Translations under genes and position numbers: made by a program
Notes under the pieces: generated by a model
Told to the model about the DNA's origin: nothing
Database searches by the model: none
Seen by the model: only the letters and a program-made list of their open reading frames with translations
Origin: an uncultured Bacteroides sp.
GTDB taxonomy: Bacteria; Bacteroidota; Bacteroidia; Bacteroidales; Bacteroidaceae
Length of the DNA stretch: 50,455 nt
Assembly (NCBI GenBank): GCA_947646015.1
Contig: CANSEY010000032.1
Span: 1-50,455, forward strand
Reading direction: 5' to 3'
Shown: piece by piece, positions 23,685-36,120 of the stretch
Position numbering within the stretch: the first letter of the stretch is position 1
How the letters are laid out: each line of letters starts with the position of its first letter

Positions 23685-23840
23685 AATGTTCTCCTTATTA
23701 GTTACTTTTCGTACTATAACAATAAAAAACGATTTTTGTTATGTACAAACAATAGGTATCACATACACTTACAACGGTGGAATAATTCAAGATGCTATTA
23801 ACGATGATTAAAGAATAAACAATTATCGACGTATAAAAAC

Positions 23841-23911
23841 AAAAAATGGCTACTCATCACGAGCAACCAATCTTTTGTTAACCTTAAATCTAATACTTAT
23901 GAAAAAAACAC
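23841..23911 (-). ncRNA. Small RNA, FopS-like family, copy 1
   Basis: Predicted ~70-nt transcript. Promoter on the minus strand: TTTG (23943-23946), 19 bp, TATATTTG (23916-23923). The body is the conserved family sequence, containing GTATTAGATTTAAGGTTAAC. The terminator stem is GGTTGCTC with GAGTAGCC (8 bp, two wobble pairs), then T6. Copies 2 and 3 share promoter and body but have different terminator stems. The antisense of the body looks like an RBS, ATG and lysine codons, the shape of a susC start region. It lies between the DUF3829 and DUF1848 genes. The rest of 23685-24214 is AT-rich. Confidence 0.8.
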
Positions 23912-23971
23912 AGTACAAATATACCACCTTTCAAGTAAATAGCAAATTTCAGAGCCGAATCGGACGATAAT

Positions 23972-23985
23972 ATAACACGGTTTAA
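23972..23985 (-). promoter_or_regulatory. Conserved element upstream of sRNA copy 1
   Basis: The minus strand reads TTAAACCGTGTTAT. It is separated from the -33 TTTG by exactly 25 bp, as in the other two copies. Confidence 0.65.
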
Positions 23986-24214
23986 TATTCTCGGAAGCGC
24001 ATTAACATTTCAGACTTTTCGTGTTAACATTTAACATATTCATTCACAGTTCCTGCTTAAAGAGATTCTTGAAAAAGCAACTAAGTCCGCTTTTTCCTCT
24101 CATCTCTTATTAAACCTTTATCAGTATGCTCTATTCTCCCATCCATCCGTTCTATTGATTATTTTTCATCACGGAATTATTGCAATACAACCAATTTTAC
24201 CGTAACTTTGAAAT

Positions 24215-25153
24215 ATGATAATTAGCGCCAGCCGCCGGACAGATATTCCGGCATTCTATTCGCAATGGTTCTTCAACCGGATTAAAGAAGGATACGTGTT
24301 AGTTCCCAATCCTTTTAATCCTAAAATGATCAGCAAGGTCAGCTTACATCCTGCTGTGGTAGATTGCATCGTGTTCTGGACCAAGAATCCTGCTCCGATG
24401 ATTGATAAACTGGATCATCTGCAAGACTACAAATACTACTTTCAGTTCACCCTCAATCCTTACGGAGAGAAATTAGAAAATAATCTGCCGTCTATCGACA
24501 AACGAATAGACATATTCAAACGCCTTTCGGATAAAATAGGAAAAGAGAAAGTGATCTGGCGCTATGACCCGATACTGACTAACGAGGAATATGACGTTTC
24601 TTTCCATAAGGAGGCATTCGCCCAAATTGCCTACGGACTTAAAGACCATACCGAAAAGTGTATGCTGGGATTTATTGACCATTACCAGCATATCCGCACC
24701 GCAGTCGGCCAGTTCAACATACAGCCGTTGCGAAAAGAGGAGATTGAAGAAATAGCCGTCTCTTTCAGGAATACCATCAACGAATATCCTGCTATCCAAC
24801 TGGATACCTGCACCTCCAAAGTTGATCTGAGACATTTGGGAATCCCTGCCGGACTGTGTATCGACAAAGAACTGATCGAAAGAATCACCGGCTACCCCCT
24901 CCTTGCCAAAAAAGACAAAAATCAGCGGAATGTCTGCAATTGCATTGAAAGTATCGACATAGGCACTTATGAAAGTTGCCTCAACGGATGCATCTATTGT
25001 TACGCCATCAAAGGCAATTACAACAGTGTGGAATATAACACTAAGAAACATGACAGGAATTCGCCTTTGCTGATCGGGCATCCGGCAGAAGATGATGTAG
25101 TGAAGAAACGGGAAATGAAAAGTCTGCGAAACAATCAATATTCATTATTCTGA
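24215..25153 (+). CDS. DUF1848 family protein, possible Fe-S enzyme
   Basis: 312 residues. It begins IISASRRTDIPAFYSQWFFNRIKEGYV, the DUF1848 signature, with FWTKNP further on. A Cys cluster lies in the C-terminal part (VCNCIES...ESCLNGCIYCYAI), suggesting a 4Fe-4S site of radical-SAM type at the end rather than the start of the protein. Function unknown. It is flanked by two members of the sRNA family, one on each side and both on the other strand. Confidence 0.75.
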   Translation: MIISASRRTDIPAFYSQWFFNRIKEGYVLVPNPFNPKMISKVSLHPAVVDCIVFWTKNPAPMIDKLDHLQDYKYYFQFTLNPYGEKLENNLPSIDKRIDIFKRLSDKIGKEKVIWRYDPILTNEEYDVSFHKEAFAQIAYGLKDHTEKCMLGFIDHYQHIRTAVGQFNIQPLRKEEIEEIAVSFRNTINEYPAIQLDTCTSKVDLRHLGIPAGLCIDKELIERITGYPLLAKKDKNQRNVCNCIESIDIGTYESCLNGCIYCYAIKGNYNSVEYNTKKHDRNSPLLIGHPAEDDVVKKREMKSLRNNQYSLF

Positions 25154-25192
25154 ATCACGCCCGGACTCCAAATAATTCCTTCGCATAAGAGC

Positions 25193-25260
25193 AAAAAAAA
25201 GGCTATCTATCCCAGACAGCCAATCTTTGTTAACCTTAAATCTAATACTATGAAAAACAC
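25193..25260 (-). ncRNA. Small RNA, FopS-like family, copy 2
   Basis: About 68 nt. Promoter TTTG (25292-25295), 19 bp, TATCTTTG (25265-25272). The conserved body is CTGTGTTTTTCATAGTATTA... through to AACAAAG. The terminator GGCTGTCT with AGATAGCC (8 bp) is followed by T8. The upstream sequence also resembles copy 1 beyond the promoter (GCATTAACA and TGTTAACATTTA in both), so these two copies are the closer pair. Confidence 0.85.
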
Positions 25261-25320
25261 AGTACAAAGATACGGACTTTTGCCTCATCTCCAAATTTTC
25301 CGGCTAAAACGGGACATCTT

Positions 25321-25334
25321 ATAACATGGTTTAA
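25321..25334 (-). promoter_or_regulatory. Conserved element upstream of sRNA copy 2
   Basis: TTAAACCATGTTAT on the minus strand, 25 bp upstream of the -33 TTTG. One base differs from copy 1. Confidence 0.65.
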
Positions 25335-25536
25335 TAGAATCAGAACCGCATTAACAAATAAGCAACTTCATGTTAACATTTAGCAGTCTTCTTAAATATT
25401 TAACCCATAAAACTGAATGAGATGCAAAAGTTTTCGAATCTGTTGCCGATTCCTATTAATAAGAGTTTACAGGCAACAACAAATCCATTCATTAGCTGTT
25501 AATTAGAGGAAGATAATCATCAGATTCTCAACATAT

Positions 25537-26316
25537 ATGAAAAGATTTGAAAACAAAGTAGTCGTCATCACCGGTGCGGCCGGTGGCATTGGCGAAGCAA
25601 CCACACGCCGCATCGTCTCCGAAGGAGGCAAAGTAGTCATCGCCGATCATTCGCAGGAAAGGGCCGACAAGCTTGCCGCCGAACTCACTCAAGCAGGGGC
25701 CGACGTGCGTCCCATCTATTTCTCCGCCACCGAACTCCAAAGCTGTAAAGAACTAGTTGATTTCGCCATGAAGGAATACGGTCAGATAGACGTACTTATA
25801 AACAACGTAGGCGGAACCGACCCCAAACGTGATCTGAATATTGAAAAGCTGGATATCGATTACTTCGACGAAGTATTCCATCTGAACCTTTGCTGCACAA
25901 TGTATCTTTCTCAGCAGGTCATTCCCATCATGACCACCCACGGAGGCGGAAATATCGTAAATGTAGCATCCATAAGCGGGCTGACAGCCGACGCCAACGG
26001 CACCCTCTACGGAGCCAGCAAAGCAGGTGTCATCAATCTGACCAAATATATCGCCACCCAAATGGGAAAGAAAAACATCCGCTGCAATGCCGTAGCACCG
26101 GGACTGGTTCTTACCCCTGCCGCACTGGACAATCTGAACGAAGAAGTACGCAATATATTTCTGGGACAGTGCGCCACGCCTTATTTGGGAGAACCCGAAG
26201 ACGTTGCCGCCACCATTGCATTCCTGGCCTCCAACGATGCACGATACATCACTGGACAGACGATTGTGGTAGACGGCGGCTTAACCATTCACAATCCTAC
26301 CATTGAATTATCATAA
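25537..26316 (+). CDS. Short-chain dehydrogenase/reductase
   Basis: 259 residues, classical SDR. Cofactor motif TGAAGGIG at 12-19, NNVGG at 89-93, catalytic S145, Y158 and K162 (YGASK), and the C-terminal GQTIVVDGG. D37 at the end of beta-2 (VVIADHS) suggests NAD(H) preference. The substrate is not evident; similar to 3-oxoacyl-ACP or sugar-alcohol dehydrogenases. GC-richer than its surroundings. Confidence 0.85.
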   Translation: MKRFENKVVVITGAAGGIGEATTRRIVSEGGKVVIADHSQERADKLAAELTQAGADVRPIYFSATELQSCKELVDFAMKEYGQIDVLINNVGGTDPKRDLNIEKLDIDYFDEVFHLNLCCTMYLSQQVIPIMTTHGGGNIVNVASISGLTADANGTLYGASKAGVINLTKYIATQMGKKNIRCNAVAPGLVLTPAALDNLNEEVRNIFLGQCATPYLGEPEDVAATIAFLASNDARYITGQTIVVDGGLTIHNPTIELS

Positions 26317-26465
26317 ATATACCCCGGACAGTATATCCTGCTTTTTATCATAAGAACGATTGGCTATCAAAAAGTATCTTACTCCTTGCCAATAAAGCCA
26401 GATGTACTGTCCATTTATTCTCTTTTTCATCCCCTCTCTCTCAACATACTCCAAAACAATTCTTC

Positions 26466-26738
26466 ATGACGCGACCAAAGAAACTTACTCCCTATCTGGA
26501 ATGCAACATCGGTGGCCCATTGGCGGCTGCCAAAGAAACCAATGGCGGATTTTATCTTTCCCCGTCTGTAGGAGCACAGGTAAAGCTCACTCAAAAATTA
26601 AAAATGAATATTGCCTTAGGCTATGAAATACAGCAACTGGAAAGGCTGAAACAGCGGACCGATGAATATTTCCATACCGAATTCAAGGAAGAACTGTCTC
26701 ACCACTCCATCACCCTAAAAGTGGGATTAACTTACTAA
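26466..26738 (+). pseudogene. Truncated outer-membrane beta-barrel protein
   Basis: 90 residues with no signal peptide. The sequence PYLECNIGG..., LSPSVGAQVKLTQKLKMNIALGYEIQQL and the ending SITLKVGLTY looks like the last strands of an outer-membrane barrel, ending in an aromatic residue as barrels do. The beginning of the gene is missing and the preceding 140 bp show no matching frame. Probably a remnant. Confidence 0.5.
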
Positions 26739-26822
26739 AGAAAGAATTATTGTCAATTAATCAGTAGGATTGTCCAACAAATACTAACTTTACAACGTTT
26801 TACATATTAAATAATAAACGGT

Positions 26823-27992
26823 ATGATTGTAAGAACACTGCTGGATACAGACCTCTATAAGTTTACCACCTCGTACGCTTATATCAAATTATTCCCTTAC
26901 GCAATGGGTACTTTCAGCTTCAATGACAGAAACGAAACTGAATATACCGAAGAATTTCTGAAAGCGCTCAAAAGCGAATTCAGCAACCTCAGCCGGTTGA
27001 GGCTTACGGAAGAGGAACTGGAATACATGACACGCAATTGCCGGTTTCTTCCGAGAGTCTATTGGGAATGGCTGTCTTCTTTCCGTTTTGATCCGGACAA
27101 GATCGATATTCATCTGGACACAACGGGCCGGCTGCATATTGAAGTCAGCGATTTTCTTTATAAAGTCACACTGTATGAAGTACCGCTGCTCGCCATCGTA
27201 TCCGAAATCAAAAACAAGTTTTTCGGCAACATACCCGATATGAGCGAGATACTCTGCAAATTGTCGGAGAAAGTGGAATTGTCCAATCAGCACCAGCTCC
27301 GCTTCTCGGAGTTCGGCACGCGGAGAAGATTCTCAATCGACGTACAGGAGACGGTGATCAAACGGCTGAATGATACGGCCAAATACTGTACCGGAACTTC
27401 CAACAGCTACTTTGCCATGAAGTACGGCATGAAAATGATGGGAACTCATCCGCATGAGTGGTTCATGTTTCATGGGGCACAGTTCGGATATAAGCACGCC
27501 AACTATATGGCACTCGAAAACTGGGTGAATGTATACGACGGAGATTTGGGCATTGCGCTGTCCGACACTTATACTTCAGGAATATTCCTGAGCAATCTCA
27601 GCCGCAAGCAGGCCAAGCTATTCGACGGAGTACGCTGCGATTCTGGCAATGAATTTGATTTTATTGATAAACTGGTAGCCCGCTATAAAGAACTGGGCAT
27701 TGATGCCACTACCAAAACAATCGTCTTTAGCAACGCTCTCGACTTCACGAAAGCACTGGAAATTCAGGAATACTGCAAGGAGAAGATTCGCTGTTCCTTC
27801 GGAATCGGTACCAATCTAACGAATGACACAGGATTTGCCCCTTCCAACATTGTCATGAAACTCACGCAATGCAAAATGAATGTCAATCAGGAATGGAGAG
27901 AATGCATCAAACTATCGGATGACGAGGGAAAACATACAGGCAGTCCAGAGGAAGTACAGGCTTGTCTGTACGAACTAAGGCTGGCGAAATAA
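26823..27992 (+). CDS. pncB: Nicotinate phosphoribosyltransferase
   Basis: 389 residues. It begins LLDTDLYKFTTSYAYIKLFPYAMGTFSF, the substrate-binding start of PncB. It continues FSEFGTRRRFSID and later FDGVRCDSGNEFDFIDKL and FGIGTNLTND. It converts nicotinate and PRPP to nicotinate mononucleotide in the NAD salvage pathway. Close to full length for the family. Monocistronic, with sRNA copy 3 immediately downstream on the opposite strand. Confidence 0.93.
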   Translation: MIVRTLLDTDLYKFTTSYAYIKLFPYAMGTFSFNDRNETEYTEEFLKALKSEFSNLSRLRLTEEELEYMTRNCRFLPRVYWEWLSSFRFDPDKIDIHLDTTGRLHIEVSDFLYKVTLYEVPLLAIVSEIKNKFFGNIPDMSEILCKLSEKVELSNQHQLRFSEFGTRRRFSIDVQETVIKRLNDTAKYCTGTSNSYFAMKYGMKMMGTHPHEWFMFHGAQFGYKHANYMALENWVNVYDGDLGIALSDTYTSGIFLSNLSRKQAKLFDGVRCDSGNEFDFIDKLVARYKELGIDATTKTIVFSNALDFTKALEIQEYCKEKIRCSFGIGTNLTNDTGFAPSNIVMKLTQCKMNVNQEWRECIKLSDDEGKHTGSPEEVQACLYELRLAK

Positions 27993-28027
27993 AGACCGCT
28001 CTGAACAGAAAGCCGGGGTACGGGCAT

Positions 28028-28091
28028 AAAAAAAGGAGCAACGCCTTGCTCCAACCTTTGTTAACCTTAAATCTAATACTATGAAAAACAC
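28028..28091 (-). ncRNA. Small RNA, FopS-like family, copy 3
   Basis: About 64 nt. Promoter TTTG (28123-28126), 19 bp, TATCTTTG (28096-28103). Same body as copy 2, with one base changed near the 5' end. The terminator GGAGCAA with TTGCTCC has a GGCG loop and is followed by T7. It may also end the pncB transcript from the other side. Confidence 0.85.
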
Positions 28092-28151
28092 AGTGCAAAG
28101 ATACGTACTTCTGTGTTATTAGCAAATTATCCAAATAAAAAAGTATGTTTC

Positions 28152-28165
28152 ATAACACGATTTAA
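28152..28165 (-). promoter_or_regulatory. Conserved element upstream of sRNA copy 3
   Basis: TTAAATCGTGTTAT on the minus strand, 25 bp from the -33 TTTG. The sequences between the element and the promoter differ from copies 1 and 2, so the match is not just recent duplication. Confidence 0.65.
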
Positions 28166-28717: not shown

Positions 28718-28725
28718 TATCTTTG
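28718..28725 (+). promoter_or_regulatory. -7 box TATCTTTG of the carboxylase operon
   Basis: Exact consensus just ahead of the riboswitch, predicting transcription from about 28732. The remainder of the 28529-28730 gap shows no gene. Confidence 0.6.
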
Positions 28726-28735
28726 CCCCCCGAAA

Positions 28736-28955
28736 TGGTTCGGAGTCCGTGTCCAACGGATGACGATTAAAAGGGAATCGGGTGTAAATCCCGTACAGTC
28801 CCGCTGCTGTGAAGCTCTATACAATGTCTTATTAATGAACTAATTTATCGCCACTGATGTTATTTTGGGAAGGCACTATAAGACAAGAGTCAGTCAGAAG
28901 ACCTGCCACTTCGCGTAAAGCGTTCTTCTGCCTCGTGGGTTAGGAGAAAGAACAT
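28736..28955 (+). promoter_or_regulatory. Cobalamin riboswitch
   Basis: Contains the conserved core: AAAAGGGAATCGGGTGTAAA, then ACAGTCCCGCTGCTGTGA (28795-28812), and the 3' side AGTCAGTCAGAAGACCTGCC (28889-28908). Behind the core, GTTCTT (28922-28927) can pair with AAGAAC (28948-28953) as a possible expression platform. The first gene starts about 105 bp later. This class binds adenosyl- or methylcobalamin and usually lowers expression when bound. Confidence 0.9.
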
Positions 28956-29060: not shown

Positions 29061-30572
29061 ATGATAAAAAAAATCTTAGTAGCCAATCGCGGTGAAATTG
29101 CCATAAGGGTGATGCGCTCCTGCCGGGAGATGGAGATAACGAGTATCGCAATTTTCTCCGAAGCAGACCGGACCGCGAAGCACGTGCTCTATGCAGACGA
29201 AGCTTATTGCGTAGGACCGGCAGCATCCAAAGAGAGTTATCTGAATATAGAAAAAATCATCGAAGTGGCAAAGGAATGCCATGCTGACGCTATTCATCCG
29301 GGATATGGTTTCCTGTCCGAAAACGCGACTTTCGCCCGACGCTGTCAGGAAGAAAATATTATTTTTATCGGACCGGACCCCGAAACGATGGAGGCAATGG
29401 GCGACAAGATATCCGCCCGTATTAAAATGATCGAGGCAGGGGTCCCTGTCGTTCCCGGCACACAGGAGAATCTGAAAAGTGTGGAAGAAGCCGTAGAACT
29501 CTGCAACAAGATCGGTTATCCGGTGATGCTGAAAGCATCTATGGGCGGCGGCGGAAAAGGTATGCGCCTTATCCACAGTGCGGAAGAGGTGGAAGAGGCT
29601 TATACAACTGCCAAGAGCGAGTCACTTTCTTCTTTTGGCGACGATACCGTTTATCTGGAGAAGTTCGTGGAGGAACCTCATCACATTGAATTTCAGATTC
29701 TGGGCGACAAACACGGAAACGTGATTCACCTGTGCGAACGCGAATGTTCCGTACAGCGCCGCAACCAAAAGATTGTGGAAGAGACGCCATCGGTTTTCGT
29801 GACTCCCGAACTGCGTAAAGATATGGGTGAAAAGGCGGTAGCCGCGGCCAAAGCGGTCAACTATATCGGTGCAGGCACGATTGAGTTCTTGGTCGACAAG
29901 CATCGCAATTATTACTTCCTCGAAATGAACACCCGTCTGCAAGTAGAACATCCGATAACGGAAGAAGTGGTCGGAGTGGACTTGGTGAAAGAGCAGATCA
30001 AAGTTGCCGACGGACAAGTGCTCCAGCTGAAACAGAAAGATATCCAACAGCGCGGCCATGCCATCGAATGCCGTATTTGTGCCGAAGACACGGAAATGAA
30101 CTTCATGCCGAGCCCAGGAATCATCAAACAGATTACAGAACCGAACGGAATCGGTGTTCGTATCGACAGTTACGTTTACGAAGGATATGAAATCCCGATC
30201 TATTATGACCCGATGATCGGCAAACTGATCGTATGGGCTACCAACCGCGAATATGCCATCGAACGGATGCGCCGCGTACTCCATGAGTATAAACTGACAG
30301 GTGTAAAGAACAATATCAGCTACCTACGTGCCATCATGGACACACCGGATTTCGTGGAAGGTCATTACGACACAGGCTTTATCACCAAGAACGGCGAACA
30401 TCTGCAACAATGCATCATGCGCACCAGCGAACGTGCCGAAAATATTGCCATGATTGCTGCCTACATGGATTATCTGATGAATCTTGAAGAAAACAGAGGT
30501 GACGCAACGGACAACCGTCCCATCAGCAAATGGAAAGAATTCGGTTTGCACAAAGGTGTACTTCGTATCTAA
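29061..30572 (+). CDS. accC: Biotin carboxylase subunit of acyl-CoA carboxylase
   Basis: 503 residues. Standard biotin carboxylase: KILVANRGEIAIRVMRSCREM at the start, ATP-grasp with the glycine loop MGGGGKGMR, VEEPHHIEFQILGD, CSVQRRNQKIVEE, EMNTRLQVEHPITE and IECRICAED. It carboxylates the biotin of the carrier encoded next. About 50 residues longer than E. coli AccC at the C-terminus. First gene of a three-gene operon with its biotin carrier and carboxyltransferase, under a B12 riboswitch. The context fits propionyl-CoA carboxylase/methylmalonyl-CoA metabolism better than fatty acid synthesis. Confidence 0.9.
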   Translation: MIKKILVANRGEIAIRVMRSCREMEITSIAIFSEADRTAKHVLYADEAYCVGPAASKESYLNIEKIIEVAKECHADAIHPGYGFLSENATFARRCQEENIIFIGPDPETMEAMGDKISARIKMIEAGVPVVPGTQENLKSVEEAVELCNKIGYPVMLKASMGGGGKGMRLIHSAEEVEEAYTTAKSESLSSFGDDTVYLEKFVEEPHHIEFQILGDKHGNVIHLCERECSVQRRNQKIVEETPSVFVTPELRKDMGEKAVAAAKAVNYIGAGTIEFLVDKHRNYYFLEMNTRLQVEHPITEEVVGVDLVKEQIKVADGQVLQLKQKDIQQRGHAIECRICAEDTEMNFMPSPGIIKQITEPNGIGVRIDSYVYEGYEIPIYYDPMIGKLIVWATNREYAIERMRRVLHEYKLTGVKNNISYLRAIMDTPDFVEGHYDTGFITKNGEHLQQCIMRTSERAENIAMIAAYMDYLMNLEENRGDATDNRPISKWKEFGLHKGVLRI

Positions 30573-35728: not shown

Positions 35729-35904
35729 ACGACAAAACTACTATGCAATCTTACCTGTAATGCCGGGGAGGCATATCTTGCTTGACTTATCTATATTCGC
35801 ATACCCATAAGAAGCTTTATCAGGTGATTTGCATAATAAATAACGCACCCATTCGGATTTTGTTCACAAGAGTTCTGAAAAAAATGAAGTTAAGACGACT
35901 TTTT

Positions 35905-35968: not shown

Positions 35969-36120
35969 ACGACAAAACTACTATGCAATCTTCCTGTTAT
36001 GCCGGGGAGGCATATTCACTGACTCATATATATTCGCATACCTACAAGCAGCCATCAGGCGATTTGCACATATATAACATCCCGATTTTCGTTTTGTTCA
36101 CGAAAAAAAGAGATTGAAGT

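Follow-up and report, generated by a model that had tools for sequence, protein, structure and literature searches.

A predicted Cur-type site at a fixed place upstream of FopS small RNA promoters in Bacteroides and related bacteria

Three small RNA (sRNA) genes on the minus strand of a 50,455-nucleotide stretch of DNA from an uncultured Bacteroides sp. (contig CANSEY010000032.1, assembly GCA_947646015.1; the whole stretch is called the window below) are each preceded by the same short element at the same distance from the promoter. The three RNAs were identified by Rfam covariance-model matches, all above the curated cut-off of 56 bits, as FopS (RF04319), a "family of paralogous sRNAs" with 14 members in B. 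thetaiotaomicron that are expressed from canonical sigma-ABfr promoters, are induced by bile salts and repress translation of SusC-type glycan importers (PMC11697453). We propose, with a probability of about 0.68, that the element is bound by Cur (BT4338/MalR), the Crp-family regulator known as a master switch of sugar use, at a predicted class I-like place, centred at -60.5, of sigma-ABfr-type FopS promoters.

The element, TTAAA(C/T)C(A/G)TGTTAT, has exact minus-strand matches at positions 23972-23985, 25321-25334 and 28152-28165, and in all three copies its end lies 25 bp before the -33 box (TTTG) and 48 bp before the -7 box (TAnnTTTG). Twelve of its 14 bases are identical across the copies, against 6 of the 25 spacer bases, and among 3000 dinucleotide shuffles the best 14-mer at a shared offset reached 7 of 14 identical bases, with none (0/3000) above 7. 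The original prediction had placed an element exactly 25 bp upstream of the -33 box in the three copies, separated from it by largely unrelated DNA, and coordinates and shuffles bear it out in both respects. Copy 1 differs by 3 bases in the interval between the -7 box and the RNA core, yet keeps the 48 bp spacing. Counting the 14-mer in the window was rejected as a measure of significance, as the count is not significant by itself: with two mismatches allowed the shuffles expect 2.4 matches, and three or more were reached in 40 of 100 shuffles. Significance rests on the place of the element. No further match with up to two mismatches was found anywhere in the window.

In many copies of the family the 14-mer runs on into a palindrome like ATGTTATAAAACAT, which fits the consensus wwwTATGTTnTAnAACATAwww predicted by Ravcheev et al. 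for the Crp-family protein BT4338 by comparative genomics (PMC3878776); a matching, very similar site at fusA2 was tested by Townsend et al. through a 22-bp deletion (PMC6989115). The 14-mer first described is thus real and covers only the left part of a longer element, and the view that the motif had not been described before was dropped once the Cur consensus was found in the literature: the motif is already known (PMC3878776, PMC6989115), and its regulator probably is too. With the 5' ends of the Rfam matches (23911, 25260 and 28091) taken as +1, the palindrome centre falls at -60.5 in all three window copies, which differ in how much of the palindrome TATGTTnTAnAACATA they retain. Copy 3 (RNA at 28025..28091, 77.8 bits; -7 box TATCTTTG at 28096..28103 and -33 box TTTG at 28123..28126, these and the boxes of the other copies being read in the sequence) has both halves of the Cur-type palindrome in its element at 28144..28165 (TTAAATCGTGTTATGAAACATA), the 14-mer extending as GTGTTATGAAACAT, and scores 11 of 14. 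Copy 2 (RNA at 25191..25260, 77.7 bits; -7 box TATCTTTG at 25265..25272, -33 box TTTG at 25292..25295) scores 9 of 14, its element at 25313..25334 being made up of TTAAACCATGTTAT and AAGATGTC with a degenerate right half. Copy 1 (RNA at 23838..23911, 63.5 bits; -7 box TATATTTG at 23916..23923, -33 box TTTG at 23943..23946) is a half-site of 7 of 14, with TTAAACCGTGTTAT (23985-23972) followed by a degenerate right half in the element at 23964..23985. Like the RNAs, all these features are on the minus strand. Copies 1 and 2 represent half-site subclasses: relatives retain the half further from the promoter, preceded by TTAAACC. These two copies also have upstream stretches in common, TGTTAACAYGAA and TGTTAATGCG, at comparable distances (about 24000-24040 and 25345-25385), which were not seen in copy 3.

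The spread of the element through the family was followed in the window genome (G000) and four relatives (G095, G106, G103 and G108), the latter searched by DNA similarity with no more than 29 candidates per genome scored, so that the copy sets of the relatives are possibly incomplete. The window genome gave 13 family matches, 10 of them over the Rfam cut-off. Scored as present when at least 9 of 13 positions agree with TTAAANCRTGTTAT at the exact place, the element was found in 9/13 matches of G000, 12/16 of G095, 11/14 of G106, 9/12 of G103 and 7/12 of G108, that is 48 of 67 (L346 and L348 only just reaching the threshold of 9), against 23 hits at 2867 other positions. Compared with TATGTTNTANAACATA at the exact place, the nine carriers of G000 score 14, 13, 13, 12, 11, 11, 9, 8 and 7 of 14, with 11 for window copy 3, 9 for copy 2 and 7 for copy 1. 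Locus L347, which the core pattern had overlooked, also carries the element. When five of the 67 matches were set aside as GibS-like because of their diverged bodies (a label given from reading alone), 49 of the remaining 62 FopS copies had the element at the identical place, and the spacing was invariant among carriers.

The 13 copies without the element at the usual place form three recurrent subclasses (L009/L308/L323/L337/L349; L011/L012/L315/L354; L313/L326/L339/L350). Control of the whole family by one regulator, as first suggested, is therefore not what the alignment of upstream regions returned: about one fifth of the family lacks the motif at this place, and the distance never varies among those that have it there. 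The upstream regions of the first two subclasses are alike within each subclass, suggesting other inputs. The third, with one copy in each relative, carries a perfectly matching Cur palindrome (14/14) just 16 bp upstream of the -7 box, where it replaces the -33 box, 32 bp (three turns) from the usual place. These FopS-14-like copies lie 7-31 kb from the cur gene and in L255 the copy follows a methyltransferase-like open reading frame; they may have a Cur-controlled promoter of their own, or be repressed.

A wider set of at least 128 public FopS copies was drawn from an exact-core scan; four were dropped because a contig end was too close, and the other 124 were tabulated by NCBI family. A Cur-type site was called when, with a tolerance of 1 bp, at least 10 of 14 positions matched the palindrome or at least 11 of 13 matched the left 14-mer, and its place is given as the distance of its centre from the -7 box (-48 meaning 48 bp before it); all counts from this set, and those of regulator genes at its loci, are among the matches listed. 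In Bacteroidaceae 61 of 69 copies have a Cur-type site at -48 and eight have neither this nor the second type of box described below, and in all four copies from Paludibacter (Paludibacteraceae) the palindrome lies 11 bp further up, centred at -71.5. Prevotellaceae differ, 37 of 46 copies carrying the palindrome TTGATnnnnATCAA, the consensus of an FNR box, about 19 bp further up (about -79.5); seven of the remainder have neither site, and one each has a Cur-type site at one of the two places. Measured from the -7 box, the FNR-type box is at -67 in 27 of 40 cases and between -66 and -69 in 39 of 40, and it stands in place of the Cur-type box, for example in L030, L036, L041, L056 and L057. Five copies with another or no family label comprise two FNR-type, one Cur-type and two with neither. 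Of the 85 copies without an FNR-type box, 48 score at least 11 against the palindrome at -48, compared with 6 of 4335 at other offsets in the same promoters. The family thus extends past the Bacteroidaceae that the text of the FopS paper (PMC11697453) names, into Prevotellaceae and Paludibacter; records labelled Clostridium (L023) and Roseburia carry a copy as well, and these labels may be wrong.

The position is therefore fixed and helix-phased, as at class I promoters: E. coli CRP sites of that class are centred at -61.5 and -71.5. The public copies also bear on whether the element merely reflects the common descent of promoters that arose by duplication, or is a UP-like, AT-rich stretch read by no specific protein. 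Recent duplication is indeed seen in some copies (the near-upstream sequences of L003 and L004 are largely the same), a T-run inside the spacer before the -33 box is conserved too, and the spacer averages 0.55 bits per base. The element itself averages 0.78 bits against 0.19 in the distal flank, with G and C positions conserved, so that its conservation and held spacing, as originally proposed, stand; together with the far lower identity of the spacer in the window and the recurrence of the site over Bacteroidaceae genera and Paludibacter at phased distances, this makes both explanations most improbable.

The protein searched as Cur is a Crp-family protein (PF00027 and PF13545) that is conserved in the genus and has an 11/14 palindrome just upstream of its own gene, as BT4338 likewise has a site upstream of its gene (PMC3878776); on these grounds we infer that it is the BT4338 ortholog. 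It is present in 14 of 15 same-genus relatives, and in four relatives its gene lies 7-31 kb from a FopS copy (the Cur matches of G095 and of B. faecis, G001, have identical contig coordinates), in line with the position of FopS-14 at BT_4331 (PMC11697453). Two protein searches covered 98 of 119 FopS loci, representing 94 genomes. Where Cur is at least 72% identical (41 genomes), 38 have the site at -48, one has a weak site at -59 and two have neither; where there is no Cur (30 genomes), 25 have the FNR-type box, one a Cur-type site and four neither. A diverged Cur (38-59%, 17 genomes) goes with ten FNR-type boxes, five Cur-type sites and two cases of neither, four of the five Cur-type sites being labelled -59 and the fifth, L055, -48 in one scoring and -59 in two others. 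In the six genomes at 60-71% identity there are three FNR-type boxes, one of them beside a site-less copy, and three cases of neither. At the level of families, site and Cur gene thus go together. Of the 60 Cur proteins that were read, a set without four of the diverged ones, 57 have the recognition helix MTTSNAIRTL unaltered, including proteins of as little as 41% identity. We accordingly rejected the idea that the Prevotellaceae boxes are sites of a diverged Cur, as the helix is unchanged and 25 of the 30 Cur-less genomes have such a box, which needs another protein.

Several observations weigh against Cur as the binder, or against its acting simply as an activator. The co-occurrence of gene and site follows clades and so provides no independent test of Cur, and a protein search found no Cur gene in the window's own assembly, which is 74.7% complete. 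Of the window copies, 1 and 2 are reduced to a half-site, and by itself copy 1 would not pass as a Cur box. In the public set the adjoining spacer shows fair conservation too (0.55 bits against 0.78 in the element), and the strongest columns of the element, the AA of TTAA at 1.7 bits each, coincide with the border of the published palindrome or fall outside it. Genome-wide, the Cur consensus with two mismatches occurs at chance level (53 matches against 57 in the reversed control for G000, 68 against 69 for B. faecis), so isolated matches mean little and the argument rests on the fixed place and the family-wide repetition. In B. faecis, the fusA2 site has its centre 53 bp upstream of a degenerate -7 box, a departure of half a helical turn from the position at FopS. 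Published expression is at odds with a simple activator as well: FopS is anticorrelated with GibS (PMC11697453), which peaks on mucin and in starvation, where Cur would be expected to be active; it is about 3-fold lower on N-glycan, where the same is expected of Cur, than on glucose (PMC11697453); and it rises with bile salts. No regulon was drawn from the genome-wide matches.

Part of this evidence would suit another regulator, for instance a bile- or envelope-stress factor, that reads the asymmetric TTAAnC(A/G)TGTTAT, the likeness to Cur sites being partial or secondary. Left-half-only sites recur as conserved subclasses, TTAAACC(A/G)TGTTATAA, TTAA is the strongest conserved part, bile salts induce FopS (PMC11697453) and further Crp-family proteins exist in these genomes. 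Copies with both halves present match the Cur palindrome at 11 to 14 of 14 positions, however, and half-site and full-site copies share one place, and we consider this alternative unlikely.

If Cur is the regulator, it would, bound at -60.5, sit on a fixed face of the helix and contact RNA polymerase in the manner of CRP at class I promoters, and a feed-forward loop from Cur through the sRNA to polysaccharide utilization loci would result. Given binding by Cur, we lean slightly towards stimulation rather than lowering of FopS transcription, because the spacing is held near -61.5 and moves by one turn in Paludibacter, a conserved T-run lies between the site and the -33 box, and Cur-activated fusA2 also has an upstream site. 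The geometry suggests activation and the published FopS expression does not; of the activator site first proposed, a regulator-type site near the class I place (-60.5; 9/13 copies in G000, 61/69 listed Bacteroidaceae copies) holds, while activation comes from geometry only and disagrees with expression. Alternatively, and with rather lower probability, Cur may bind and lower FopS transcription, so that FopS would no longer hold back SusC translation under carbon limitation, much as with CRP and Spot 42 in enteric bacteria. Such repression would account for low FopS where Cur should be active, and fits the 140 repressed against 35 activated genes associated with Cur by chromatin immunoprecipitation (ChIP) (PMC6989115) and the repression of spf by CRP-cyclic AMP in Salmonella (PMC5991649). 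Against repression, a constant distance would not be required of a repressor at -60.5, whereas the spacing here is kept and shifts by one full helical turn in Paludibacter; the site of fusA2, which is proven to be activated by Cur, occupies the same upstream zone; and steady-state FopS could also drop through target-coupled decay.

A candidate for the regulator of the FNR-type box in Prevotella is a Crp-family protein (PF00027) of about 196 aa whose last helix contains PETLSR, resembling the FNR helix motif E-x-x-S-R. It occurs in 44 of 46 genomes examined, namely 36 of 38 with an FNR-type box (both misses carry the box) and 8 of 8 others; the PETLSR helix was read at 20 of 30 retrieved loci. 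No FNR-type box was found near its gene in the two genomes looked at, and no literature was found on FNR sites or on paralogous sRNAs in Prevotella. More broadly and tentatively, at somewhat below even odds, FopS promoters could be a conserved input port for Crp/Fnr-family regulators, served by Cur in Bacteroidaceae and Paludibacter and taken over by an FNR-type protein in Prevotellaceae, partly with loss of Cur.

Eighteen loci with Cur-like sites were examined. Non-FopS sites at two of them lie in the zone used by FopS before a -7 box, L254 at 49 bp and L264 at 51 and 52 bp, as does the fusA2 site at 53 bp; at the others the site is nearer or further, or no -7 box is in reach. In L264 (G000:C3:163492-164692) a 13/14 Cur-type palindrome stands between divergent GntR-like and glycoside hydrolase-like genes, 51 and 52 bp from the two -7 boxes. 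Elsewhere in the window, a Cobalamin riboswitch (RF00174) at 28719-28924 lies just upstream of a biotin carboxylase-like gene at 29061, and two tandem Bacteroides-1 sRNAs (RF01694) are found on the minus strand at 35749-35834 and 35989-36069.

Cur as a candidate would join two lines of work on Bacteroides, on a master regulator required for gut colonization and on a large paralogous sRNA family acting on glycan importers, and the element would suggest how FopS RNAs are wired to the food response of the cell. Its candidacy can be tested with existing strains and ChIP data. Cur already has an sRNA among its targets, MasB, which it activates (PMC10994844), and Pearce et al. place some sRNAs induced by carbon limitation (BTnc140, BTnc195 and BTnc364) near BT4338 sites (PMC10294740). 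The FopS paper mentions Cur once, as a yardstick of colonization (PMC11697453). No publication linking a Cur-type motif to FopS was found among the matches listed, and published ChIP sequencing of Cur may already include fopS promoters.

The nearest known relatives of the element are the Cur/BT4338 sites of fusA2 and masB in B. thetaiotaomicron, where, as at FopS, the palindrome ATGTTnTAnAACAT lies upstream of the promoter (PMC3878776, PMC6989115, PMC10994844). The FopS site differs in being repeated at many paralogous promoters at one fixed place, in having an extra distal TTAA and often being reduced to its distal half, and in being centred 48 bp before the -7 box instead of the 53 bp of B. 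faecis fusA2. E. coli CRP at class I promoters belongs to the same protein family and uses a helix-phased upstream place comparable to the -60.5 of Bacteroidaceae and the -71.5 of Paludibacter; FopS promoters are of the other, -33/-7 type and are served by another RNA polymerase, activation is here read from geometry only, and Cur, unlike CRP, is apparently insensitive to cyclic AMP. FNR boxes are matched by the palindrome at a fixed place in most listed Prevotellaceae FopS promoters, whereas the window element has a different sequence, and the FNR-type box is located some 19 bp more distally. In Prevotellaceae, the change from Cur-type to FNR-type boxes would be a clear example in nature of regulators being exchanged at a conserved sRNA family. 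CRP and Spot 42 (spf; PMC5991649) are alike in setting a global sugar regulator beside an sRNA that silences secondary carbon genes. Spot 42 is one CRP-repressed gene, whereas FopS has 12 to 15 copies per genome, which Cur may activate or repress; if Cur represses, the circuit would be a counterpart of CRP-Spot 42, and if FopS promoters are an input port, FopS would be the conserved output of a rewired master switch of glycan use, the Bacteroidota counterpart of that pair.

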